From: Polaribacter sp. Hel1_33_78
GTDB lineage: Bacteria > Bacteroidota > Bacteroidia > Flavobacteriales > Flavobacteriaceae
DNA length: 64,000 bases
Direction: 5' to 3'
Assembly: GCF_900106075.1 (NCBI RefSeq)
Contig: NZ_LT629794.1
Coordinates: 1,592,001-1,656,000, forward strand
Shown here in pieces: positions 19,877 through 31,804 of the stretch (the first letter of the stretch is position 1; each line of letters begins with the position of its first letter). The notes under the pieces were generated by a model. The model saw nothing but the letters and a program-made list of their open reading frames with translations. It had not been told where the DNA came from and ran no database searches. The position numbers and the translations under genes are program-made.

Positions 19877-21154
19877 TTAGTTTTTAGGATATTTTGCTGC
19901 AATCTTATCTAAACTTAAATTATGAATACTACCAACATGTGAATGTTGTTTTCCTAAATCGGGTTTATACGTCCCTTCTTGAACCTGGCCTCCAATTTTT
20001 TGATATGCTTCTCGAAAAGACATGCCTCCAACCACTAAATTATTGATGCTATCGACTGTAAATAAGTATTGATATTTTTCATCATTCAAATCGATATCTT
20101 TTACAATGACTTGTTGAATAGCATAATTTAAAATGTCTAAAATATCTTTTACATCTTCAAAAGCACTGATAATATTTTCTTTTAATAATTGAAAATCTCT
20201 ATGGTAACCTGATGGCAAATTATTGGTGATCATGACCATTTCTGTATGTAAAGCCTGAATTTTATTGCATTTTCCGCGAATCAATTCAAAAACATCAGGA
20301 TTTTTCTTGTGTGGCATAATGCTACTTCCAGTAGTTAACGCATCAGGAAAAGAAATAAAATTAAAATTTTGACTCATATATAAACAAACGTCCATTGCAA
20401 ATCGAGACATTGTATTACACAATCCGCCTAAAGCTGAAGCAATAGAACGCTCACTTTTTCCTCTACTTAATTGAGCTGCAACAACATTATATTTTAAAGT
20501 AGCAAAATCTAATTCTTTCGTCGTTAATTCTCTGTCGATAGGGAAGGAACTTCCATAACCGGCAGCAGAGCCTAAGGGATTTTGATCTACAATTTTAGAG
20601 ACTGCATTTAGCATATATACGTCATCAATTAGTAATTCTGCATACGCAGAAAACCACAATCCAAAGGAGGATGGCATTGCTACTTGCAAATGGGTATAAC
20701 CAGGTAATAAACTTTCTTTGTGTATTTCTGCTAAACCTATAAGTGTATTAAAAAGTGTTTTTGTTTTATCATTTATAATCGCTAAATTTTCTTTATAGTA
20801 CAGTTGCAACGACACTAAAACTTGATCGTTTCTTGAACGAGCAGTGTGAATTTTCTTACCAACCTCACCTAATTTATCGGTCAGTTCCCATTCAATTTTA
20901 GAATGTACATCTTCAAAAGAAGGTTCAATTACAAATGTTCCGTTTTCTATATCTGAAGCTAATTTTTGCAAACCTCTTTTAAGATCTGATAACTCATTTG
21001 CAGTAATTATTCCAATAGATTCTAACATTATTGCATGTGCTAAAGAAGCTTGTACGTCATATTTTGCAATATGAATGTCAATTTCTCTATCATTGCCAAC
21101 TGTAAAATTTTCTATTTGTTTGTCTATTGAAAATCCTTTATCCCAAAGTTTCAT
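19877..21154 (-). CDS. argH: Argininosuccinate lyase
   Basis: Splits argininosuccinate into arginine and fumarate, the last step of arginine synthesis. The 425-residue protein has the superfamily signature GSSIMPHKKNP at 276-286 and the conserved TARSRNDQV (104-112) and GYTHLQVAMPSSF (152-164) regions, including the catalytic His155. It is the last gene of the eleven-gene arg/pro operon, starting 16 bases after argE. No terminator is obvious after its stop. Confidence 0.95.
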   Translation of the reverse strand: MKLWDKGFSIDKQIENFTVGNDREIDIHIAKYDVQASLAHAIMLESIGIITANELSDLKRGLQKLASDIENGTFVIEPSFEDVHSKIEWELTDKLGEVGKKIHTARSRNDQVLVSLQLYYKENLAIINDKTKTLFNTLIGLAEIHKESLLPGYTHLQVAMPSSFGLWFSAYAELLIDDVYMLNAVSKIVDQNPLGSAAGYGSSFPIDRELTTKELDFATLKYNVVAAQLSRGKSERSIASALGGLCNTMSRFAMDVCLYMSQNFNFISFPDALTTGSSIMPHKKNPDVFELIRGKCNKIQALHTEMVMITNNLPSGYHRDFQLLKENIISAFEDVKDILDILNYAIQQVIVKDIDLNDEKYQYLFTVDSINNLVVGGMSFREAYQKIGGQVQEGTYKPDLGKQHSHVGSIHNLSLDKIAAKYPKN

Positions 21155-21170
21155 ATTTCTTTTTTTGTAA

Positions 21171-22238
21171 TTAAACGATTACTTTATTTAATAATTCTAC
21201 GTAAATCTGTATTCCTTCTTGAATTTCAGCTAAGTAGATAAATTCATTGGCAGAATGAGAACGAGTGCTATCTCCAGGTCCTAATTTTAAAGATTGGCAA
21301 CTTAAAGCAGATTGATCTGATAAAGTTGGTGATCCATAAGTTTCTCTACCCATTGCAATTCCTGCTTTCACCAAATTATGATTTAAAGAAATAGAGGAGG
21401 AGTTTAATCGTAAACTTCTTGGAGCTATTTTACTGCAAGGAGATTGTTCTTGTAAAATATTATCAATTTCTTGATTAGAATAGGCATCATTTACGCGAAC
21501 ATCAATCACTAAATCTACGTGACCAGGAACTACATTATGTTGTGAACCAGCATTTATTTGAGTTACTGTCATTTTTACATCACCTAAAGCATCTGAAGAT
21601 TTATCAAACTTAAAATCTTTAAACCATTGCAAAACTTCAATGGTATTATAAATTGAATTATTATCATTTGGATGAGCTGCATGACTTGGAGTACCGTCTA
21701 TAACTGCATCAAAAACAACTAAACCTTTTTCTGCAACTGCAAGATTCATTAAAGTTGGCTCACCAATAATAGCCACATCTATATGTGGAATGATTGGTAA
21801 CATAGAGTTTAAACCATTTTGTCCACTGTTTTCTTCTTCAGCTGATGCTACAATTACCAAATTGTATTTTAGATTTTCAACATCATAAAATTTTGTAAAA
21901 GTTGCCATTAAAGAAACCAAACAACCACCTGCATCATTACTTCCTAAACCAAATAATTTTCCATCTTTTACAAAGGCCTCAAAAGGATCGTTTGTGTATT
22001 TTGAATTTGGACGAACAGTATCATGATGAGAGTTTAATAATAATGTTGGTTTACTTTCATCAAAATATTTATTTGTCGCCCAAATATTATTTTTTGTTCT
22101 TTTAAATGATATTTGATATTCACTGAACCATCCTTCAATTAATAGAGCAGTATTTTCTTCTTCTTCAGAAAAAGATTGGGTTTCAATCAATTTTTTTAAA
22201 AGTGAAATTGCATTTTCTGTTAATTTTTCAATACCCAT
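21171..22238 (-). CDS. argE: M20 deacylase of arginine synthesis (N-acyl-citrulline/ornithine)
   Basis: A zinc-dependent M20-family amidohydrolase of 355 residues. Metal-site motifs are LNSHHDTV (about 67-74), GSNDAGGC (about 98-105) and SAEEENSGQNG (about 131-141), with GEPT at about 157-160. Because the operon contains a SOTCase-type argF', the likely substrate is N-succinyl- (or N-acetyl-) L-citrulline rather than acetylornithine. It starts 1 base after argB. The substrate assignment is inference from the pathway. Confidence 0.85.
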   Translation of the reverse strand: MGIEKLTENAISLLKKLIETQSFSEEEENTALLIEGWFSEYQISFKRTKNNIWATNKYFDESKPTLLLNSHHDTVRPNSKYTNDPFEAFVKDGKLFGLGSNDAGGCLVSLMATFTKFYDVENLKYNLVIVASAEEENSGQNGLNSMLPIIPHIDVAIIGEPTLMNLAVAEKGLVVFDAVIDGTPSHAAHPNDNNSIYNTIEVLQWFKDFKFDKSSDALGDVKMTVTQINAGSQHNVVPGHVDLVIDVRVNDAYSNQEIDNILQEQSPCSKIAPRSLRLNSSSISLNHNLVKAGIAMGRETYGSPTLSDQSALSCQSLKLGPGDSTRSHSANEFIYLAEIQEGIQIYVELLNKVIV

Positions 22239-22239
22239 C

Positions 22240-23016
22240 TTATAATGTAATTGTAGTAAAAATGTTATTTTCTTTAGTTAACATGCTTGTGTTTCCAATG
22301 TGTACTTTTTGAACACCATTATTTAGTGCATCAAAACAATTATCCAATTTAGGAATCATGCCATCAGAAATAATCCCTTCTTTTAATAATTTTTGATAGT
22401 TTTCTGAATTGATCTTTTTAATTATTGATTCTTTATCATTAAAATCTTCTAAAACACCATTAAATTCAAAACAATAGTATATTGATGTATCATAAATCTC
22501 ACTCATTCCAACTGCAATTTTACTAGCAATAGTATCTGCATTTGTGTTTAATAATTGTCCATTACCATCGTGCGTTATGGCACAAAAAACAGGTGTAAAA
22601 TCAGCTTTCAATAATTTATTAATTGATTTGGATGCTACTTTTTTCACATCACCAACAAAGCCAAAGTCAATATCTTTAACAGGTCTTTTATCAGATTGAA
22701 TGCTGTTGATGTCTGCACCCGTTAAACCAATGGCATCAGTACCTAAAGCTTGTAATTTAGCCACAACATTTTTGTTTACTAAACCACCATAAACCATAGT
22801 AATAACTTCCAAAGTTTCAGGATCAGTTACGCGTCTTCCCTTTACCATTTTAGATTCAATACCTAATTTTGATGCAATATGAGTAGCTCTTTTTCCTCCT
22901 CCATGAACCAAAATCTTATTTCCTTCTAAATTTGAAAATAATTTTAAAAATTTGTTTAGAGAAATTTCATCTTCTATGATGTTACCGCCTATTTTTATAA
23001 TTGAAAGTTTTTCCAT
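22240..23016 (-). CDS. argB: N-acylglutamate kinase
   Basis: Phosphorylates the gamma-carboxyl of N-acetyl- or N-succinylglutamate; amino acid kinase family, 258 residues. IKIGGNII (7-14) and VHGGGKRAT (38-46) form the nucleotide and acyl-glutamate binding loops. Further features are GLTGADINSIQS (near 97-108) and LNTNADTIASKIA (near 156-168). The arginine-feedback N-terminal helix of some ArgB proteins is absent, so control may be elsewhere, for example at the leader. It is 24 bases downstream of argF'. Confidence 0.9.
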   Translation of the reverse strand: MEKLSIIKIGGNIIEDEISLNKFLKLFSNLEGNKILVHGGGKRATHIASKLGIESKMVKGRRVTDPETLEVITMVYGGLVNKNVVAKLQALGTDAIGLTGADINSIQSDKRPVKDIDFGFVGDVKKVASKSINKLLKADFTPVFCAITHDGNGQLLNTNADTIASKIAVGMSEIYDTSIYYCFEFNGVLEDFNDKESIIKKINSENYQKLLKEGIISDGMIPKLDNCFDALNNGVQKVHIGNTSMLTKENNIFTTITL

Positions 23017-23040
23017 TTTAATTAATAACTAAAAGTTATT

Positions 23041-23979
23041 TTACAAGTCTTCTAATATTTTTTTCAATACTAATTGCGCTGCATATGTTCTATTATTGGC
23101 TTGTTCAATAACTAAAGAGTTATTCGAATCTAAAACAGCATCTGCTACCACAACATTTCTTCTTACAGGCAAACAATGCATAAATTTTGCATTTTTTAGT
23201 TTTTCTTCTGTGATCATCCATTGTTCATTACCACCTAAATTTTGGCCATAATTATCGTAAGAACTCCAGTTTTTAGTGTAGACAAAATCTGCATCTTTAA
23301 ATGCTGCTGCTTGATTATTATAAATAGGGGTGTCTTTTGTGATTTCTGGACTTAAATTATATCCTTCTGGGTTTGTAATTACAAAATCAACATCCATTTT
23401 TTGCATAGCTTGTACAAAACTATTTCCAACTGCATGAGGTAAAGATTTTAAATGGGGCGCCCAACTTAAAACTACTTTTGGTTTCTTTTTTGTGGAGTTT
23501 TCAGAAATGGTTATTGCATCTGTTAAACCTTGTAAAGGATGACCAGTGGCGCTTTCCATACTTACAATGGGTGTTGAAGCAAATTTAACAAAGGACTCTA
23601 GAACGTGTTCAGATTCGTCTTTTTCTTTGTCTGTTAATGTTGGAAATGCTCTTACAGCAATTATATCACAATATTGAGAAACAACAGCAGCAGCTTCTTT
23701 AATATGTTCTGCGGTGTTTCCATTCATAATCGTTCCATCTCCAAATTCAATTCCCCAAGCATCGTCAGAAACATTCATAACAATAGGGTTCATGCCTAAA
23801 TTTAAAGCTGCTTTTTGAGTGCTTAAACGTGTACGTAAACTTGAATTAAAAAACAGTAACCCTAATGTTTTGTTTTTTCCTAATTCAATATTTGCAAGTG
23901 GATTTGCTTTAATTTCTTTCGCCTCTTTGATCCAAGTAGCAATATTATCAATGTCGTTTATGGAGGTGTAATTCTTCAT
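23041..23979 (-). CDS. argF': N-succinylornithine carbamoyltransferase (ArgF')
   Basis: Transfers carbamoyl from carbamoyl phosphate to N-acylornithine. The 312-residue protein has the carbamoyl-phosphate motif SSLRTRLSTQKAALNLGMN (46-64), the HPLQGLTDA loop and the FMHCLPVRRNV ending found in AOTCase/SOTCase rather than normal OTCase. At the position that sets the acyl group (Pro90 in Bacteroides fragilis SOTCase, Glu92 in Xanthomonas AOTCase) it has Ala90, in NTAEHIKE. Absence of Glu favours succinylornithine. Family identity is clear; the acyl preference is inference. Confidence 0.85.
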   Translation of the reverse strand: MKNYTSINDIDNIATWIKEAKEIKANPLANIELGKNKTLGLLFFNSSLRTRLSTQKAALNLGMNPIVMNVSDDAWGIEFGDGTIMNGNTAEHIKEAAAVVSQYCDIIAVRAFPTLTDKEKDESEHVLESFVKFASTPIVSMESATGHPLQGLTDAITISENSTKKKPKVVLSWAPHLKSLPHAVGNSFVQAMQKMDVDFVITNPEGYNLSPEITKDTPIYNNQAAAFKDADFVYTKNWSSYDNYGQNLGGNEQWMITEEKLKNAKFMHCLPVRRNVVVADAVLDSNNSLVIEQANNRTYAAQLVLKKILEDL

Positions 23980-23985
23980 AGTCTG

Positions 23986-24750
23986 TTATTTAATTTTCGT
24001 AAAAGGAACTTTATTGTCAAACGCATTGCAGATAAAATTATCTACTAAGCCATTGACAATCCATGTTTCTATATTAGCTTTTTTGGCAACTTCAGCAGCT
24101 TCAATTTTAGATTGCATTCCTCCACTTCCATGACTAGATTTGGAGTTCACAATTTCATTCTTTAAATCATCAAAATTGATAACTTCTTCAATGGTTTTTG
24201 GAACTTTATTTTGGATGGATTCTTTAGTGTAAATACCATTAGTATTAGTTGCTATTATCAATAAATCAACTTCTAATAATGATGCTGTTAGCGCTGCTAA
24301 TTTATCATTATCACCAAATTTTATTTCATCTGTGGCAACTGTATCATTCTCATTTATGATTGGAATATAATTGTTATTTACCAACACTTTTATAGTATTG
24401 GTAATATTGGTTTTACTTTCGTCTTTTTCAAAATCAGAATAGGAGAGAAGGCATTGAGAACTTAATAAACCATATTCTCTAAAAATCTCTTGATAAATTC
24501 TAATTAAATGAGGCTGACCAATTGAAGCTAATGCTTGTTTTACAAATACATCTTTTTGCTTACTTTCTAGTTTTACAAATTGTTTTGCAACGGCAATTGC
24601 GCCAGAACTAACAATTATAAATTCATAAGTTTCCTTGAGTTTTGCAATTTGACTTGCAATATCTTCAATTTTTCCTCTTGAAATATTATCTGTTTCTTTG
24701 GTAAGTGTATTCGAACCAATTTTTAGTAAAATGCGTTTCTTTTTTTGCAT
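23986..24750 (-). CDS. proB: Glutamate 5-kinase, short form without PUA domain
   Basis: Phosphorylates glutamate in the first step of proline synthesis; amino acid kinase fold. At 254 residues it ends after the kinase domain and lacks the C-terminal PUA domain of longer ProB. Motifs include LLKIGSNTLT (8-17), IIVSSGAIAVAKQ (45-57), IINENDTVATDEIKFGDND (132-150) and SHGSGGMQSKIEAA (205-218). It begins 1 base after proA and is followed 6 bases later by argF', so proline and arginine genes are physically mixed in one transcript. Confidence 0.9.
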   Translation of the reverse strand: MQKKKRILLKIGSNTLTKETDNISRGKIEDIASQIAKLKETYEFIIVSSGAIAVAKQFVKLESKQKDVFVKQALASIGQPHLIRIYQEIFREYGLLSSQCLLSYSDFEKDESKTNITNTIKVLVNNNYIPIINENDTVATDEIKFGDNDKLAALTASLLEVDLLIIATNTNGIYTKESIQNKVPKTIEEVINFDDLKNEIVNSKSSHGSGGMQSKIEAAEVAKKANIETWIVNGLVDNFICNAFDNKVPFTKIK

Positions 24751-24751
24751 A

Positions 24752-25945
24752 TTATCTTATTTGTCCGTTTCCGTGAACATACCATTTGTTTGTTACCAAA
24801 TGTTGTAACCCTATAGGTCCACGTTGATGTAATTTATCTGTACTTATAGCTAATTCTCCACCCAATCCTAATTGACCTCCATCTGTAAAACGTGTAGATG
24901 CATTATGATATACGGCAGCTGTATCAACATTTGCCATAAATAATTTAGCTTCCGCTGTATTCTTGGTAATAATTGCTGAGGAGTGGCCGCCAGAATAGTT
25001 ATTAATCATTGCAATCGCGTCTTTATTCGATGGAATTTCTCCAATTACAATTTTGTAATCTAAAAATTCTTTGTACCAAACATCATTTGATGAAATTTCT
25101 TCAACTTTATCAAATTTTGAAATTATTGTATCCCCTAAAACATCAATTTTAAACTCTTTTAACTTTGATAATAAACGATTAATAAAAGCTGTTTTATTTG
25201 GAAGGTTTTTGTCAATTAAAACTTTATCGACCGCATTACAAGCAGAAATTTTGGATTTTCCATTTAAAATAATCTCAATTGCAATAGCTGTATCTGCTTC
25301 TTTATGAACAAAAACAAAGTTATTACCACGTCCGCTAATAATTATAGGACACGTAGCGTGTTTTTTTACAAACGCAATCAAACGTTCACCGCCTCTTGGA
25401 ATAATTAAATCGACTTTTTGGGATGGTCTTTCTAAAAAAGCTTGCGTTTCAGTTCTATCAAATTGTAGGTAGGCAATCCAATCATTAGAAGCATAGTGCT
25501 GGTTTAAAGCTTGATGCCATAAGTCCACAATTTTTAAGTTCGATTGTAAAGATTCTTTACCTCCTTTTAAAAGTATTTTATTTCCAGATTTAAATGCAAT
25601 TCCAGCAGCTTCAACCGTTACATCTGGTCTAGATTCATAAATGATTAATATTGTGCCAAAAGAAGCGGTTTTATTATAAACCTGCATTCCGTTATCATGT
25701 CTAAAGCTAAATCGTTCTAAACCAACAGGATCTTCTTGAGTTGCCAAGTGTAAACAAGCTGCAATCATTTCATGAACTTTTGCTTCATCAACTTTTAATC
25801 GATCGAACATAGAAATATCATCACCCTTGTAAGCTTCTAAATCTTTTTTGTTTATGCTAATAATAGCTTCTTTTTCTCGATCAAGAAGTGAGGCCATTGT
25901 GCGTAAAACATTATTTCTAGTTTTTATGGATAATAACGTATTCAT
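24752..25945 (-). CDS. proA: Glutamate-5-semialdehyde dehydrogenase (gamma-glutamyl phosphate reductase)
   Basis: Reduces gamma-glutamyl phosphate to glutamate-5-semialdehyde with NADPH. The aldehyde dehydrogenase-fold protein has 397 residues. YESRPDVTVEAAGIAFKSGNK (near 103) is the ProA signature, split here as YESRPDVT then AGIAFKSGN. The catalytic cysteine lies in KISACNAVDKVL, after GRGNNFVFVHK. The C-terminal TRFTDGGQLGLGGELAIST is conserved. It lies between argD (18 bases upstream) and proB (1 base downstream). Confidence 0.93.
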   Translation of the reverse strand: MNTLLSIKTRNNVLRTMASLLDREKEAIISINKKDLEAYKGDDISMFDRLKVDEAKVHEMIAACLHLATQEDPVGLERFSFRHDNGMQVYNKTASFGTILIIYESRPDVTVEAAGIAFKSGNKILLKGGKESLQSNLKIVDLWHQALNQHYASNDWIAYLQFDRTETQAFLERPSQKVDLIIPRGGERLIAFVKKHATCPIIISGRGNNFVFVHKEADTAIAIEIILNGKSKISACNAVDKVLIDKNLPNKTAFINRLLSKLKEFKIDVLGDTIISKFDKVEEISSNDVWYKEFLDYKIVIGEIPSNKDAIAMINNYSGGHSSAIITKNTAEAKLFMANVDTAAVYHNASTRFTDGGQLGLGGELAISTDKLHQRGPIGLQHLVTNKWYVHGNGQIR

Positions 25946-25963
25946 TTATTTTCTTATTTTTTT

Positions 25964-27094
25964 CTAGGAATCTAAAGCATTAACCAAAGCTTTAAAAAAC
26001 TGATTTATATGCTCTTTTTTCACGTTTAATGAGGGTAAAATTCTTAATAGTTTTTTATTAGCCGCTCCACCTGTAAAAATATGATACTCGTAGATTAATT
26101 TTTTTCTTAAATCGCTTACTTCATAATCGAATTCTAGACCTAGCATTAAGCCTCTTCCTTTAATGTTTTTTATCTGGGGAATTGTTCTAGCAATTTTAAT
26201 AAAGTATTGAGATATTTCATTGACATTGTGCATTAAATTATCTTCTTCAATTACGTTTAAAACCGATAAACCTGCAACACAAGCTAAATGATTTCCGCCA
26301 AAAGTAGTGCCTAACATTCCGAACTTTGCTTCAATGGAGGGGTGAATAAAAATTCCTCCAATAGGAAAACCATTTCCCATTCCTTTTGCGATAGAAATAA
26401 TATCTGGAGTAACCTTATAATGTTGAAATGCAAAAAACTTTCCTGATCGGCCATATCCAGACTGCACTTCATCGGCAATAAAAAAGGTATTGTTCGCTTT
26501 ACAAAGTACATCGACTTTTTCAAAAAATTTAGCAGTGGCCTGATCTAATCCTCCAACACCCTGAATAAATTCTATAATTATAGCACAAACATCTCCCTTT
26601 TCGAGTTCTCTTTGAACTCTTTCAATATCATTTAGCTCTAATATTGTAACCTTTTGTTGTGCGTTTATTGGCGCAATAATACTGGTATTATCCGTGGCAG
26701 CAACAGCCGCAGACGTACGACCATGAAAACCATTTTTAAAAGCGATTACTCTGGATTTACCTGTTTTAAAAGAAGCTAGTTTTAAGGCATTTTCATTCGC
26801 TTCTGCGCCCGAATTACATAAAAACAATTGGTACTCTTTACAGCCAGAAAGAGTTTCTAATTTGTCAGTTAATTCTTTTTGTAATGGATTTTGAATTGCA
26901 TTTGAATAAAAACCTAATTTAGCAACTTGATTTGTAATTGCTTCTACATATTTTGGATGTCCATGCCCAATAGAAATTACTGCATGACCTCCATACAAAT
27001 CTAAATATGCAGTATTATTTTCATCATATACATACATGCCTTTTGCTGAAACTGGAGTAACATCATATAAAGGATAAACATTAAATAAAGGCAT
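25964..27094 (-). CDS. argD: N-acylornithine aminotransferase
   Basis: A class III PLP aminotransferase (376 residues) that converts N-acyl-glutamate semialdehyde and glutamate to N-acylornithine. The phosphate loop is NSGAEANENALKLA, the cofactor Asp is in ADEVQSGYGRSG, and the PLP lysine is in SIAKGMGNGFPIG. The C-terminal LLRILPSLNVKKE is typical of ArgD-like enzymes. The acyl group is probably succinyl, given the SOTCase-like partner. proC lies 1 base upstream. Confidence 0.92.
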   Translation of the reverse strand: MPLFNVYPLYDVTPVSAKGMYVYDENNTAYLDLYGGHAVISIGHGHPKYVEAITNQVAKLGFYSNAIQNPLQKELTDKLETLSGCKEYQLFLCNSGAEANENALKLASFKTGKSRVIAFKNGFHGRTSAAVAATDNTSIIAPINAQQKVTILELNDIERVQRELEKGDVCAIIIEFIQGVGGLDQATAKFFEKVDVLCKANNTFFIADEVQSGYGRSGKFFAFQHYKVTPDIISIAKGMGNGFPIGGIFIHPSIEAKFGMLGTTFGGNHLACVAGLSVLNVIEEDNLMHNVNEISQYFIKIARTIPQIKNIKGRGLMLGLEFDYEVSDLRKKLIYEYHIFTGGAANKKLLRILPSLNVKKEHINQFFKALVNALDS

Positions 27095-27095
27095 T

Positions 27096-27890
27096 TTAAT
27101 TTGTTTTAATTTGGTTTATTTTTTCAAAAGAAGCGTTAATTCCTTTTATCAAAGAAGAGCTTAATCCTTGATGTTCCATTTCATTTAATCCCTCAATGGT
27201 GCATCCTCCAGGAGTGGTTACCCTATCTATTTCTTCCTCGGGATGATTGCCAGATTCTTTTAATAGGGTTGCAGCTCCAAAGCAAGTTTGCATTGCTAAT
27301 TCGTGTGCTTCGTGCGCTTCGAAACCTAATTGAATAGCCCCTTGGGTTGTCGCTCGAATTAAACGCATCCAAAAAGCAATTCCGCTTGCACAAATAACTG
27401 TTGCTGCTTGCAGTTGATCTTCAGGAATTACCATAGAACGTCCTAAGCTATTAAAAATAGTCTTTGCTAATTCAACTTTTTCCTTTCCTTTTGCATTTGT
27501 AGAGAGGCATGTCATAGATTGTCCTACAGATGCGGCTGTATTTGGCATTGCACGAATTATATAATGCTTTCCACCAATTACATTTTCAATTTTTCCTAAC
27601 GAAAAACCGGTAATCGCAGAAATTAGTATTTGCTCTTTACTGAGTTTGTATTTTAAATTTTCTAAAATATCTCTTAGATGTCTTGGTTGTACTGCAAATA
27701 TTATAATATCAGAATTTTTAACTGCTTCTTCATTATTAGTAGTTAAGGTTACTGCCTTGTATCTATTAAATTCCTTTATAGAATCTGTGTTTCTTTTTGT
27801 AAGATATAAAGAACTTACAACTTTATTTTTCAACAATCCTTTTGCAATCGATTGCCCTAAACTTCCTGCTCCAATTATTGCTACTTTCAT
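27096..27890 (-). CDS. proC: Pyrroline-5-carboxylate reductase
   Basis: Reduces pyrroline-5-carboxylate to proline with NAD(P)H. The 264-residue protein starts with the Rossmann motif AIIGAGSLGQSIAKGLL (4-20). It has IIRAMPNTAASVGQSMT near 122-138, and the C-terminal signature TPGGCTIEGLNEMEHQGL near 231-248. It lies within the arg operon, downstream of argC. The 106-base gap from argC is the only long gap in the operon and holds a repeat. Confidence 0.93.
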   Translation of the reverse strand: MKVAIIGAGSLGQSIAKGLLKNKVVSSLYLTKRNTDSIKEFNRYKAVTLTTNNEEAVKNSDIIIFAVQPRHLRDILENLKYKLSKEQILISAITGFSLGKIENVIGGKHYIIRAMPNTAASVGQSMTCLSTNAKGKEKVELAKTIFNSLGRSMVIPEDQLQAATVICASGIAFWMRLIRATTQGAIQLGFEAHEAHELAMQTCFGAATLLKESGNHPEEEIDRVTTPGGCTIEGLNEMEHQGLSSSLIKGINASFEKINQIKTN

Positions 27891-27905
27891 ACTTTATTAT
27901 TTTTT

Positions 27906-27984
27906 GGGCGTTACCTGCAGGTCACGCTTTACACTATATCTTTTTTTCGTTCCTCAAAAAGGATGTCATTTCACTCGTTAACGC
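27906..27984. repeat. Intergenic repeat with terminal inverted repeats
   Basis: A GC-richer 79-base segment between argC and proC. Its ends are GCGTTA (27908-27913) and TAACGC (27979-27984), and an internal palindrome ACCTGCAGGT lies at 27913-27922. From memory, it resembles an intergenic repeat common in flavobacterial genomes (GGGCGTTACC... CTATATCTTTTT... AAAAAGGATG... TAACGC). It is transcribed in this operon. It is not coding. Confidence 0.6.
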
Positions 27985-27996
27985 AGCTAATTGCTA

Positions 27997-28974
27997 CTAA
28001 AAATAATTTGCTTTTAAATTTAAACCTAAAGTTTCTTCAAATCCGTACATTAAATTCATATTCTGAATTGCTTGACCAGAGGCTCCTTTTAATAAATTGT
28101 CTATTACGCTTGTTATTAGTAATTTATTGTCATGTTTTGCTATATGGATTAAACATTTATTTGTGTTTACAACTTGTTTTAAATGTATATCGGTATCAGA
28201 AATAAATATAAATGCTGCATCTTTATAAAATACTTGATACATTTCTTTTGCTTCTGCTATACTGCCTTTAAATTTTGTGTAAGTGGTAGCAAAAATTCCT
28301 CTTGAAAAGTTTCCTCTATTTGGCATAAAGTTTATTTCAGAATCAAAATTAGGCTGTAACTGATTTACAGTTTGATGTATTTCTCCTAAATGTTGATGAT
28401 TAAAAGCTTTATAATGCGAAAAATTATTATCTCTCCAAGTAAAATGTGTGGTTGTAGACAAAGAAGTTCCTGCTCCAGTTGCACCAGTAACGGCATTAAT
28501 ATGAATATCGTTCTGCAGTAATCCTTTTGCAGCCAGTGGTAGAATAGCCAATTGTAAAGCAGTTGCAAAACAACCAGGATTTGCAATACATTTTGCTTCT
28601 TTTATAGCATCTCTTTGTAATTCTGGTAAACCATAGACAAATTCTTTTTCTTCGAAATTTTTATCCTTGAATAGTCTAAAATCATTACTTAAATCAATAA
28701 TTTTCATGTGATCAGAAAAACTATTGTTTTCTAAAAAAGTAGTTGAATTGCCATGACCCAAGCACAAAAATAATACATCAATTTCTGTATTAATTTTATT
28801 AGTAAAACTTATTTCAGTCGAACCAATTAAATCTTGATGCACTTGATACAATTTGTTGCCAGCATTAGAAGTGCTGTAAACAAAATTGATATTTGTTTTA
28901 GGGTGATTCAGCAACAATCTTATTAATTCCCCCGCGGTATAACCTGCACCACCTATAATTCCTACTTCTAACAT
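27997..28974 (-). CDS. argC: N-acyl-gamma-glutamyl-phosphate reductase
   Basis: Reduces N-acylglutamyl phosphate to the semialdehyde with NADPH. The 325-residue protein opens with the Rossmann motif VGIIGGAGYTAGELIRLLL (4-22). The catalytic cysteine is in NPGCFATALQLAILPL (near 132-147), and GATGAGTSLS follows. This is the shorter type of ArgC. argG lies 2 bases upstream; downstream the repeat-bearing gap leads to proC. Confidence 0.93.
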   Translation of the reverse strand: MLEVGIIGGAGYTAGELIRLLLNHPKTNINFVYSTSNAGNKLYQVHQDLIGSTEISFTNKINTEIDVLFLCLGHGNSTTFLENNSFSDHMKIIDLSNDFRLFKDKNFEEKEFVYGLPELQRDAIKEAKCIANPGCFATALQLAILPLAAKGLLQNDIHINAVTGATGAGTSLSTTTHFTWRDNNFSHYKAFNHQHLGEIHQTVNQLQPNFDSEINFMPNRGNFSRGIFATTYTKFKGSIAEAKEMYQVFYKDAAFIFISDTDIHLKQVVNTNKCLIHIAKHDNKLLITSVIDNLLKGASGQAIQNMNLMYGFEETLGLNLKANYF

Positions 28975-28976
28975 CC

Positions 28977-30152
28977 TTAAGAATTTACTTGTTGATATAT
29001 TTTATTCTGATTCCCTAAAATTTTAATAAAACCTTTTGCATCGTCTGCTGACCATGCTTTATTTTCTTCACCATACGTACTAAATTTACTAGACATTAAA
29101 TCGTGATCAGAAATAATTCCATCTAAAGAAAAATGATACGGTTTTAAAGAAACCACAACATTACCAGAAACCATTTTTTGAGAACTTTGTAAAAAAGCTT
29201 CCGTATCTCGCATTACAGGATCTAAATATTGCCCTTCATGCAAATGCATTCCATAGAAACTAGCTAAATATTCTTTATGTTGTAATTGCCATTTTGTCAA
29301 GGTATGTTTCTCTAATAAGTGATGTGCCTTTATTGTTATTAAAGCAGCTGCTGCTTCGAATCCAACTCTTCCTTTCGTACCAACTATGGTATCACCAACA
29401 TGAATATCTCTTCCAATGGCGTATGCAGCAGCAATGTCATTTAATTTTTCAATATTTATTTCTGGCAAATTTTCTTTTCCATTTAAACCAATAAATTCGC
29501 CCTTTTTAAAAGTTAGTGTAACTTTTTGTTCTACTTCTTTTTCTAATTGAGAAGGATACGCTTCACTAGGTAATGGTTTTTCAGAATTTAAAGTTTCTAC
29601 ACCTCCAACACTTGTTCCCCAAAGGCCCTTATTAACGGAGTATTTTGATTTTTCCCAAGACATATCAATTCCCTCGGATTTTAAATAATCTATTTCTTCC
29701 TGTCTTGTTAATTTTTTATCTCTAATTGGAGTTATAATATTGATTCCTGGAGCCAACGTTTGAAAAATCATATCAAAACGTACTTGATCATTTCCTGCAC
29801 CTGTGCTTCCGTGTGCAATATATTCAGCTCCAATACTTTTTGCGTACTCAACAATTTCTATCGCTTGTATAATTCTTTCTGCACTTACAGAGAGTGGATA
29901 GGTACTGTTTTTTAAGACATTTCCAAAAATTAAATACTTTACTACTTTATTGTAAAAAGTAGCAACTGCATCAATATTTTTATATGTAGCAACGCCCATT
30001 TTATAGGCGTTATTTTCTATATGTTTGATTTCTTCTTTTGTAAATCCACCAGTATTAACACTTACCGCATGAACATCATATTTTTTTGATAAACTTACAG
30101 CACAATAAGAGGTGTCTAAACCGCCACTATATGCAATTACTAATTTTTTCAT
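28977..30152 (-). CDS. argG: Argininosuccinate synthase
   Basis: Joins citrulline and aspartate using ATP to give argininosuccinate. The 391-residue protein carries the ATP pyrophosphatase P-loop AYSGGLDTSYC (8-18), AHGSTGAGNDQVRFD near 113-127, and the C-terminal GNVVVSLKPYHFSLDGI region. Its start overlaps the stop of the upstream GNAT gene by 4 bases, so the two are coupled. Placed second in the operon, it appears before the pathway steps that make its substrate. Confidence 0.93.
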   Translation of the reverse strand: MKKLVIAYSGGLDTSYCAVSLSKKYDVHAVSVNTGGFTKEEIKHIENNAYKMGVATYKNIDAVATFYNKVVKYLIFGNVLKNSTYPLSVSAERIIQAIEIVEYAKSIGAEYIAHGSTGAGNDQVRFDMIFQTLAPGINIITPIRDKKLTRQEEIDYLKSEGIDMSWEKSKYSVNKGLWGTSVGGVETLNSEKPLPSEAYPSQLEKEVEQKVTLTFKKGEFIGLNGKENLPEINIEKLNDIAAAYAIGRDIHVGDTIVGTKGRVGFEAAAALITIKAHHLLEKHTLTKWQLQHKEYLASFYGMHLHEGQYLDPVMRDTEAFLQSSQKMVSGNVVVSLKPYHFSLDGIISDHDLMSSKFSTYGEENKAWSADDAKGFIKILGNQNKIYQQVNS

Positions 30153-30766
30153 TTTTTATCTTTTTTTAGAAACAAGTTCTGTTTAATATTTTTTAATTTT
30201 TTGAAAACGCTTTCTTTCACTTCTTCAGAGGCTTCTTTATTATTGTTTTTTGGATCGAATAACATACCAGTACACAAGCACATTTTTCTATCTGTTCTTG
30301 TCAAAACATCAAAGTTTCTGCAAGTTTGACAACCATCCCAAAAGCTTTGGTCGTCGGTTAGCTCCGAGAAAGTAACAGGTTTATAACCTAAATCGCTATT
30401 TAGTTTCATAACAGGTAACCCAGTTGTAATACTAAATACTTTTGCCTCTGGAAATTTAGTTCTTGAGTGCTTGAAAATAACTTGTTTAATTTGTTTAGCT
30501 AACCCTATATTTCTATAATTTGGATGTACAATTAACCCTGAATTAGCAACAAATTTCCCATGTCCCCATTTTTCTATATAGCAGAATCCAGCAAATTTTC
30601 CATCATCTAAAGCAATTACGGCATTACCATTCTCCATCTTAGTGGCAATGTATGCTGGTTTTCTTTTTGCAATACCCGTTCCCCTAACTTTTGCAGCTTC
30701 AGCAATAGTATTACAGATAATGTCAGCGTAAACGATATGAGATTTATTAGCAATTACAATTTCCAT
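30149..30766 (-). CDS. GNAT acyltransferase, probable N-acylglutamate synthase
   Basis: A 205-residue GNAT-fold protein, first gene of the arginine operon. The acyl-CoA loop is YRNIGLAKQIKQ (84-95), after GLIVHP. The C-terminal part has four cysteines (146, 149, 163, 165: CQTC and CLC) that could bind a metal. No argA or argJ is present, so this gene is the best candidate for the first step, acylation of glutamate. I recall a homologous operon gene in Bacteroides thetaiotaomicron being proposed as N-succinylglutamate synthase from mutant fitness data. Function is therefore likely but inferred. Confidence 0.7.
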   Translation of the reverse strand: MEIVIANKSHIVYADIICNTIAEAAKVRGTGIAKRKPAYIATKMENGNAVIALDDGKFAGFCYIEKWGHGKFVANSGLIVHPNYRNIGLAKQIKQVIFKHSRTKFPEAKVFSITTGLPVMKLNSDLGYKPVTFSELTDDQSFWDGCQTCRNFDVLTRTDRKMCLCTGMLFDPKNNNKEASEEVKESVFKKLKNIKQNLFLKKDKK

Positions 30767-30838
30767 TGCATTGTATTTTTATTTGATAAAACTTGTTGTT
30801 TGTTGTTTTCTGAATGTAGAACTGGACTCACCTAAATT

Positions 30839-30897
30839 CCATAAATAAATTTTACCCCAAAGGGCGAAACTCGAAACTGCGGCAAAAATTTATTTGG
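30839..30897. repeat. Imperfect inverted repeat in the arg operon leader
   Basis: Arms 30839-30858 (CCATAAATAAATTTTACCCC) and 30881-30897 (GGCAAAAATTTATTTGG) can pair almost fully around a 22-base loop containing a doubled CGAAACT. It lies between the arginine leader ORF and the first operon gene, on the transcribed minus strand. No T-run follows, so it is not a classic terminator. It may be an alternative mRNA structure or an inserted repeat. Confidence 0.5.
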
Positions 30898-31002
30898 CTA
30901 TCGTTTAAAATAACTAAAATTTGTAAGTATGTTTTGTAAGAAAGGTTCACGATAAAAAAATAAATAATTAAAAACTATAAGAGTGTGATAAGAGGATTAA
31001 TT

Positions 31003-31021
31003 GCTAATAAAAAATACTAGC
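31003..31021 (-). promoter_or_regulatory. Hairpin spanning the arginine leader stop codon
   Basis: On the minus strand GCTAGTA pairs with TATTAGC (one G-T wobble) around a 5-base T loop. The left arm begins in the last Arg codon and includes the leader stop, so a ribosome held at the Arg codons would prevent its folding. It is a candidate regulatory switch; no T-run directly follows. Confidence 0.4.
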
Positions 31022-31091
31022 GACGACGATTGCGCAGGCGCAAACTGGGAGCTATTGTAGTACATAATTTATTGTTTCTAATAGTAATCAT
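31017..31091 (-). CDS. Arginine-rich leader peptide of the arg/pro operon
   Basis: A 24-codon ORF on the minus strand, ATG at 31091 and TAG at 31017-31019, about 250 bases upstream of the first operon gene. The product starts MITIRNNKLC and ends SLRLRNRRR, with five of its last seven residues arginine. These codons are CGC, CGC, CGT, CGT, CGC, although AGA is the common Arg codon in the surrounding genes. This is what a ribosome-mediated attenuator would look like: low Arg-tRNA stalls the ribosome in the leader. A hairpin overlaps the stop. The peptide has no other expected function. Existence of the ORF is seen; its regulatory role is inference. Confidence 0.7.
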   Translation of the reverse strand: MITIRNNKLCTTIAPSLRLRNRRR

Positions 31092-31390
31092 GATGCTAAT
31101 GTATATGTTTTTTGAAAGCAATCATTAAAAATGAATCGCTTTTTTATCAGTTTTATGAAATTTAAACAAAATTGGATTTTGAGTTATAAATTCATTAAAA
31201 TAATACTTAAATATTCCCTTTTTGACAATTCTTTAATTGACATTTCAAGTAAAATCTTATTAAATCTAATATTATTCTTAATGAATAATACAGTTCATCC
31301 TTAAATTAATACAACTCAGTATTTTTTAATTTAATAAACTTTAAATCTATTTCATATTTGTAGCATAATAAACAATTAAAACTTAAAATT

Positions 31391-31804
31391 ATGAAACTTA
31401 TCGTAGCCTTTTTAACAACACTAATATTATTAATTACAAGTACAATAGCTGCACAAAATCACACAATTACAGCAACAGTTGTAAATGTAACCTCGGATTC
31501 AGGAAAAGTAGGATTTGCTCTATATAACAAAACTAATTTTAGAATGCAACCAATTAAAGGGTTAGAATCTAAAATTTTAGACGGAAAAAGTATTGCCATA
31601 TTTGAAAACATCTCAGCAGGAGAATATGCAATCATTTGTTATCACGACAAAAATGATAATAATAAAATGGATTTTCAATCTAATGGAATGCCCAAAGAGG
31701 ATTATGGATCATCTAACAATGTAATGAATTTTGGACCTCCAAAATTTGAAGATGCAAAATTTGTTGTTATTGATAAAAATGTATCTTTAGATATTAAATT
31801 TTAA
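31391..31804 (+). CDS. DUF2141 exported protein
   Basis: A 137-residue protein with a signal peptide (about 1-21, ending STIAAQ) and a single DUF2141 beta-sandwich domain. The motif YHDKNDNNKMDFQSNGMPKE (about 84-103) looks like a calcium-binding-type loop and is characteristic of the family. Function is unknown; likely periplasmic. It starts 22 bases before the histidine kinase gene on the same strand, so it may be the leading gene of the LytS/2TM/LytTR operon. Its role there is not known. Confidence 0.8.
   Translation: MKLIVAFLTTLILLITSTIAAQNHTITATVVNVTSDSGKVGFALYNKTNFRMQPIKGLESKILDGKSIAIFENISAGEYAIICYHDKNDNNKMDFQSNGMPKEDYGSSNNVMNFGPPKFEDAKFVVIDKNVSLDIKF

Follow-up and report, generated by a model that had tools for sequence, protein, structure and literature searches.

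An Arg-rich leader ORF upstream of the arginine/proline operon of a Polaribacter strain: a candidate ribosome-mediated attenuator with relatives throughout Flavobacteriaceae

The arginine/proline operon of Polaribacter sp. Hel1_33_78 is preceded by a short ORF that ends in a run of Arg codons (31017-31091, minus strand; all positions refer to the window, which denotes the whole 64,000-nt stretch of DNA that was analysed). Our computations show that Arg-ending ORFs recur at this place in related genomes, that the class to which the ORF of the window belongs carries a coding signature, that two conserved hairpins, A and B, follow it, that these are linked to the operon, and that the arginine repressor ArgR was not found in the family. 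We interpret the ORF as probably the first of two leader peptides, acting in cis as an arginine-specific ribosome sensor that would switch hairpin A. The features of the region, all on the minus strand, are given here from upstream to downstream.

31096-31103, minus strand: predicted sigma-A -7 box TACATTAG, agreeing with TAnnTTTG at five of six fixed positions and ending 4 nt before the ATG
31017-31091, minus strand: distal leader ORF, 24 codons plus the stop codon TAG, peptide MITIRNNKLCTTIAPSLRLRNRRR, ending in SLRLRNRRR
31020-31040, minus strand: Arg run RLRNRRR (CGC CTG CGC AAT CGT CGT CGC), the putative sensing codons
30954-30964, minus strand: U-rich tract directly before the proximal GTG, recurring in two-ORF genomes (34 aligned regions, by eye)
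30852-30950, minus strand: proximal leader ORF with GTG start, peptide VNLSYKTYLQILVILNDSQINFCRSFEFRPLG, containing two Arg in this genome
30897-30914, minus strand: hairpin P1 (GUUAUU-UUAAAC-GAUAGC) within the proximal ORF, mean z of -1.17 over 159 relatives
30811-30875, minus strand: whole conserved RNA element, found by covariance model R1 with 37.4 bits and an E value of 1.2e-8
30854-30865, minus strand: hairpin A (GCCC-UUUG-GGGU), its 5′ arm formed by the last Arg/Pro codons of the proximal ORF, with a U-rich stretch after it
30817-30841, minus strand: hairpin B, consisting of a stem, a bulged UA, GG/CC pairs and the pentaloop UGAGU; core GGTGAGTCC at 30824-30832
30149-30766, minus strand: GNAT-family acetyltransferase, first gene of the operon, assigned by family models
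19877-30152, minus strand: argG, argC, proC, argD, proA, proB, an argF-like carbamoyltransferase gene, argB, an argE/dapE-like gene and argH, assigned by family models

The initial annotation had described a 24-codon minus-strand ORF with the end SLRLRNRRR about 250 bases ahead of an arginine/proline operon (GNAT/argG), five of its last seven codons being Arg codons of the CGC or CGT type, in a genome whose genes prefer AGA. Each of these statements agrees with what we found: the ORF lies at 31017-31091 with the codons listed above, the distance to the first gene, whose start is 30766, is 250 nt, and AGA accounts for 346 of the 540 Arg codons in the 46 ORFs of the window that are 150 aa or longer, in which CGT occurs 82 times and CGC 17 times. 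The N-terminal part of the distal leader contains one Arg, which is encoded by AGA. When the 420-nt leader region of the window was shuffled 20,000 times with dinucleotides preserved, a single shuffle yielded an ORF whose last nine codons include five or more Arg, and it is thus very unlikely that the ORF is there by chance. In 82 distal leaders from the family (see below), the final ten codons include 331 Arg codons altogether, 238 of them CGC, as against 17 of 540 in the genes of the window, and this enrichment is compatible with the idea that the leader is tuned to one tRNA-Arg isoacceptor. The initial annotation did not include some further parts of the leader, namely an Arg-poorer second ORF, a predicted promoter box and a pair of conserved hairpins. 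The complete leader of the window folds no better than shuffled sequences (z 0.32), no structure was found between the distal stop and the proximal start (mean z 0.63), and a hairpin within the distal ORF, visible in some relatives, is unsupported over all 81 distal ORFs (mean z -0.01).

The operon itself, named correctly in the initial annotation, comprises eleven closely packed minus-strand genes with GNAT at the head. Several of the matches to gene models, including those for argG and argD, score below the curated cut-offs. For the argF-like product the model names an N-acetylornithine-type carbamoyltransferase, and the ArgE/DapE product is a deacylase of that family. The divergent neighbour of the leader (31391-31804) encodes a DUF2141 protein (PF09912).

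An alignment of the region upstream of GNAT/argG across Flavobacteriaceae, in search of a conserved short ORF ending in Arg codons, had been proposed as a check, and its outcome is strongly positive. GNAT is present in 131 of 199 Flavobacteriaceae genomes, and upstream regions were taken for 110, of which 109 were used; the pooled upstream regions numbered 189, which left 177 distinct regions after removal of 12 duplicates, and all but one of these (176) had the length required by the ORF scan. One more family region (L280) has a leader and the RNA core and stands outside all counts. In 172 of the 176 regions there is an ORF whose last nine codons include three or more Arg, compared to 8.6 expected from shuffles, and in 124 of 176 there is one with four or more, compared to 0.9. 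With the threshold of three Arg, the search was positive for 14 of 176 regions on the reverse strand and for 11 of 172 in DNA farther upstream. Two leader positions recur, termed distal and proximal here, and the ORF of the window is of the distal class. Distal ORFs have their stop about 157-187 nt ahead of the hairpin B core and were assigned by script in 82 of 177 regions, so that about half of the family regions carry the pair of leaders, and in most of the others the proximal one alone was detected; one of the 82 (L072) was judged by eye to be the end of an upstream gene, and 81 distal ORFs were kept thereafter.

The distal ORFs have mainly Arg in common, which is the residue dominating their ends. 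Among 80 named loci, the nearest relatives of the window are three Polaribacter with 86-89% protein identity, and the closest leader is that of Polaribacter sp. Hel1_85 (L170), whose distal peptide is MITSRRNKLCTTISPSLRLRNRRR. The last nine codons of the two distal ORFs differ at four codons, all of them synonymous, and the first fifteen codons contain three non-synonymous differences. We extended the comparison to the distal ORFs of 33 closest pairs chosen without overlap. Of the 178 codon differences involving a single base, 67 were synonymous, compared to 25% expected (p 2e-4), and differences were enriched at the third codon position (p 1.6e-4). This pattern indicates that the distal ORF evolves as coding sequence; the signal is modest, since over all 612 pairs the synonymous share is about 30% (1119 of 3790).

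A promoter is predicted immediately upstream of the distal ORF. A -7 box matching five or six of the six fixed positions is found exactly 4 nt ahead of the start in 62 of 81 distal ORFs, and the background frequency of such a box is 1.5% of positions. In Flavobacterium psychrophilum, the -7 box is placed at -12 to -5 in passages of PMC9723704. Since the box ends 4 nt before the ATG, this spacing would make the A of the ATG the first transcribed base, and the mRNA of the distal leader is hence predicted to be leaderless. In regions without a distal ORF, the box lies 7 nt before an ATG in 44 of 87 cases, from which a 5′ end of about three bases is predicted.

The RNA element downstream is shared by nearly all of these regions. 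Its core is present in 171 of the 177 regions and absent from six; counted over 109 regions, the exact core is found in 98, and in 106 once variants are added. Hairpin A has the form CGCCC-GUAA-GGGUG in most relatives, with a loop that usually contains the stop codon of the proximal ORF, and hairpin B is built in the family from a stem of about six pairs, a bulge consisting of A, UA or a longer stretch, two GG/CC pairs and a UGNGU loop. The two are held at a nearly constant distance, the spacing from hairpin A to the core being 21.9 nt (sd 1.1) in 157 regions. We analyzed covariation in an alignment of 43 of 106 sequences, picked for a one-base bulge in hairpin B. In this set, 97.5% of the alignment cells pair, six pairs of hairpin B change on both sides, and the covariation of A plus B amounts to 0.230 compared to 0.077 in shuffles. 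One of the five covariation measures, that of further pair types, overlaps the shuffles (39 of 500). In the same alignment none of the pairs of hairpin A shows a double-sided change, and 10 of the 43 sequences do not form its outermost pair; among all 106 sequences, one pair is kept with both letters changed in two (L053 and L057). As judged from these alignments, covariation is clear for hairpin B and weak for hairpin A, which shows little of it because it is nearly invariant. No Rfam family matched the window at the gathering score, and a search of 14 loci with E values up to 5 returned solely two weak matches far under the cut-offs; the T-box and Bacteroid-trp (RF01692) models did not match the arginine leader either in the window or at the 14 loci. 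We also considered by eye, and dropped, the possibilities that hairpin B pairs with the Arg codons and that it resembles a tRNA arm or an anti-Shine-Dalgarno sequence.

The proximal ORF runs directly into hairpin A. An ORF in frame with the last Arg codons is present in 159 of the 171 core-bearing regions, and in 131 of these 159 relatives it ends in RRP; the one of Hel1_85 ends in VRRSFPFRPLGV. Of the proximal ORFs ending in Pro, 104 of 138 have the end CCG TAA. In three Polaribacter relatives the ends are RPLGV or RPLGVQ, not RRP, and the peptide ahead of the Arg run is little conserved throughout. Since the proximal ORF of the window has two Arg codons, the Arg run of this genome resides mainly in the distal ORF, and for the same reason the window fits a model centred on hairpin A less well than its relatives do. 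Hairpin P1, supported over the relatives as listed above, lies before the proximal Arg codons; the window taken alone gives it no support (z 0.25). The U-rich tract ahead of the proximal ORF is possibly a translation start signal. In two-ORF genomes this tract is often preceded by ACGTMATTTT.

We then compared the occurrence of the element with that of the operon. In the genome of the window, the element at 30811-30875 is the sole match to R1 at E values up to 0.01, and R1 matches once per genome in 40 of 40 chosen GNAT-bearing genomes, a rate that is biased because this hand-chosen set leaves out three genomes lacking the upstream core (G127, G140 and G180), so that the wider figures of 98/109, 106/109 and 171/177 given above are to be preferred. 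Among 40 GNAT-less genomes, in three of which argG scores above the family cut-off, we found one strong match (G084), which precedes a different first gene followed by argG and is accompanied by an Arg ORF, and one weak match (E 0.006) with no arginine gene seen beside it. Two genomes with argG behind another first gene (G017 and G051) have neither the core nor an ORF ending with at least four Arg at this place. A different protein of about 194 aa precedes argG in three family genomes (L276, L278 and L279), one of which keeps leader and element, and in the other two neither turned up; the one of these proteins that was tested had no NCBIfam match. In 395 genomes of the class searched with stricter filters, matches better than an E value of 1e-4 are confined to Flavobacteriaceae, where R1 was found in 9 of 14 genomes, the five misses being of one genus; the best E value among the 381 other genomes is 9e-4. 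By these matches, the conserved RNA element is tied to the arginine/proline operon and present in one copy per genome in the genomes searched.

To cover other families of the class, we collected 50 upstream regions, leaving four weak or secondary GNAT matches (L166-L168 and L275) unused. ORFs with at least three Arg in their last twelve codons are present in 31 of the 50 regions compared to 6.9 expected from shuffles, and ORFs with at least four in 17 compared to 1.2. Since some of these leaders use AGG and AGA (L142), it is the amino acid and not the codon that is kept. A hairpin of the form CC-UAYGY-GG occurs in eight of the 50 regions (L142, L143, L150, L154, L160, L255, L259 and L265) compared to 0.02 in shuffles, a figure that is post hoc because the pattern was first noticed in the same sequences; an Arg ORF accompanies the hairpin in seven of these eight regions. 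This count nevertheless makes it likely that a B-type hairpin exists outside the family, and the loop UAYGY and the family loop UGNGU share the pattern U-R-N-G-Y. In five of the 50 regions (L161, L163, L263, L272 and L273), belonging to two other families, an ArgR gene lies directly upstream of GNAT. It occupies the place where others carry the Arg leader. Four of these five have no Arg ORF and the fifth has a 13-codon candidate that we judged unconvincing; by the same threshold, 15 of the 45 regions without an adjacent ArgR gene also lack an Arg ORF. Across genomes, ArgR (PF02863) was absent from all 36 Flavobacteriaceae tested, including the genome of the window, and was detected in 2 of 64 genomes overall; of the control genomes, 8 of 14 were positive.

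We infer from this arrangement how the leader may work. Ribosomes would translate both leader ORFs. When charged arginyl-tRNA is scarce, a ribosome would stall in the Arg runs, and when it is plentiful, the ribosome would finish and leave. Its position would set whether hairpin A folds, whose 5′ arm is at the same time the last Arg codons of the proximal ORF: a ribosome stalled over these codons would keep hairpin A open and the operon on, and folded hairpin A with its U-rich tail, helped by hairpin B and perhaps by Rho, would stop or weaken operon expression. Stalling, the switch at hairpin A, the direction of control and the roles of hairpin B and of the distal ORF are in this scheme suggested by the layout of the leader. 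The initial proposal of a ribosome-mediated attenuator is supported by the conserved Arg ORFs, the coding signature, the RNA element tied to the operon and the fact that ArgR was not found; as to the output step, it remains a candidate. No canonical intrinsic terminator was found in the window by a terminator scan, the tail of hairpin A is 51% U with the U-rich stretch displaced, and competing terminator and antiterminator stems were not found in the aligned leader regions.

Other readings differ in what they make of these features. Termination might be due to Rho, which in a starvation-sensing leader would load behind the released ribosome on the G-poor stretch ahead of the first gene, with hairpin B as a pause or recognition hairpin and hairpin A as no terminator at all. 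This fits with the missing canonical terminator and with the low G content after hairpin B (7%), and passages of PMC1262725 propose the same for terminator-less cysteine leaders of Mycobacterium; however, terminator-like sites are called in 92 of 176 regions compared to 21 in shuffles, and in 66 of those 92 the site ends where hairpin A lies. We regard this reading as rather unlikely, although it overlaps with the preferred one and the two estimates are not exclusive. If instead free arginine were to arrest the ribosome at the proximal RRP-stop and turn the operon off, as in the case of the fungal arginine attenuator peptide or TnaC, the RRP ends (131 of 159) and the CCG TAA ends (104 of 138) would find an explanation, all the more as Pro-stop ends are slow in known arrest peptides. 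Yet the peptide ahead of the Arg run is little conserved, three Polaribacter relatives end in RPLGV or RPLGVQ, and the distal ORFs share mainly Arg; since the RRP and stop codons also form hairpin A, their conservation may moreover be conservation of the RNA. An arrest peptide therefore seems unlikely to us.

Slightly less probable again is that hairpins A and B constitute the binding site of a regulatory protein or ligand and that the ORFs matter little. Hairpin B, with its UGNGU pentaloop, bulged A and covarying stem, is indeed the best conserved part of the leader, and a similar hairpin exists outside the family, but this explanation leaves unaccounted for the Arg-ending ORFs with their coding signature as well as the Arg leaders outside the family that have no such element. 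The ORF is short and might in principle be an accident of AT-rich intergenic DNA or encode a small protein unrelated to the operon. Its rarity in shuffles (1 of 20,000) and its recurrence in 172 of 176 regions speak against an accident, and conservation mainly at the Arg end is ill-suited to a folded protein, which makes both variants exceedingly improbable.

An Arg-codon sensor switching hairpin A, the reading that we prefer, can be set beside several known systems. The classical attenuators of enterobacteria control trp, his, leu, ilv, thr and phe. They resemble the arginine leader in having cognate codons near the end of a short leader ORF and RNA structure directly downstream; they differ in that arginine would be sensed here, competing stems were not found and the proximal ORF runs into the hairpin itself. 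A case closer by is a Trp leader in the genome of the window, MKKQHNIWWWSSLRK, which lies before a trpE-like gene near position 781041, has three Trp codons in a short ORF and scores 48.6 bits against the Bacteroid-trp model (RF01692; cut-off 49). By eye it shows a strong GC stem followed by a long U run, and the arginine leader is thus built differently from the classical case represented in the same genome. Bacteroid-trp, tabulated in PMC2864571 and known from the same phylum, shares with the arginine leader a short ORF that lies close behind a promoter box, carries its cognate codons in a run and precedes a biosynthetic gene, whereas the arginine leader lacks such a terminator, has two ORFs and contains hairpins A and B, for which Rfam has no matching family. 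A short leader peptide is likewise tied to an amino acid in TnaC, SpeFL and the fungal arginine attenuator peptide, the amino acid being arginine in the last of these. In these systems the ligand is sensed in its free form by way of a conserved nascent peptide, in contrast to the leaders described here, in which mainly Arg is conserved. ArgR-repressed arginine operons have the same target pathway, and ArgR adjoins the same operon in some relatives within the class; unlike in ArgR control, however, the repressor was not found in the 36 Flavobacteriaceae genomes.

Sensing of arginine limitation by slow Arg codons has been described, in passages of PMC13009471, for the Staphylococcus aureus leader peptide rbfL, which differs in that it controls a biofilm regulator via a blocked ribosome binding site, has two Arg codons and precedes no biosynthetic operon. 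For Flavobacterium psychrophilum, passages of PMC9723704 present strong clues of leader-peptide attenuation before amino-acid operons and do not name the arginine operon. On the arginine operons of Actinobacteria, passages of PMC1262725 state that no RNA element was found upstream and mention arginine T-boxes elsewhere. Among the literature matches listed, none describes, for Bacteroidota, an arginine operon preceded by an arginine leader peptide; subscription papers could contain such a description.

Tentatively, and with less confidence than for the leader of the window, we consider it possible that those Bacteroidota which have no ArgR control their arginine operon more generally through a family of leader RNAs that sense arginine and whose design has not been reported so far. 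In such a design, a leaderless first ORF would carry a run of Arg codons, the sensing Arg codons of a second ORF would double as the 5′ arm of the hairpin that switches, and the place of the classical pair of terminator and antiterminator would be taken by a downstream hairpin whose pentaloop is URNGY. If the proposed function of the leader is correct, arginine would join those amino acids whose biosynthetic operon is controlled by a leader peptide that senses the amino acid itself. The leader would further exemplify a design that does without a classical terminator, within a phylum with unusual translation start signals, and would explain how arginine/proline synthesis is controlled in a large family whose tested genomes yielded no ArgR.
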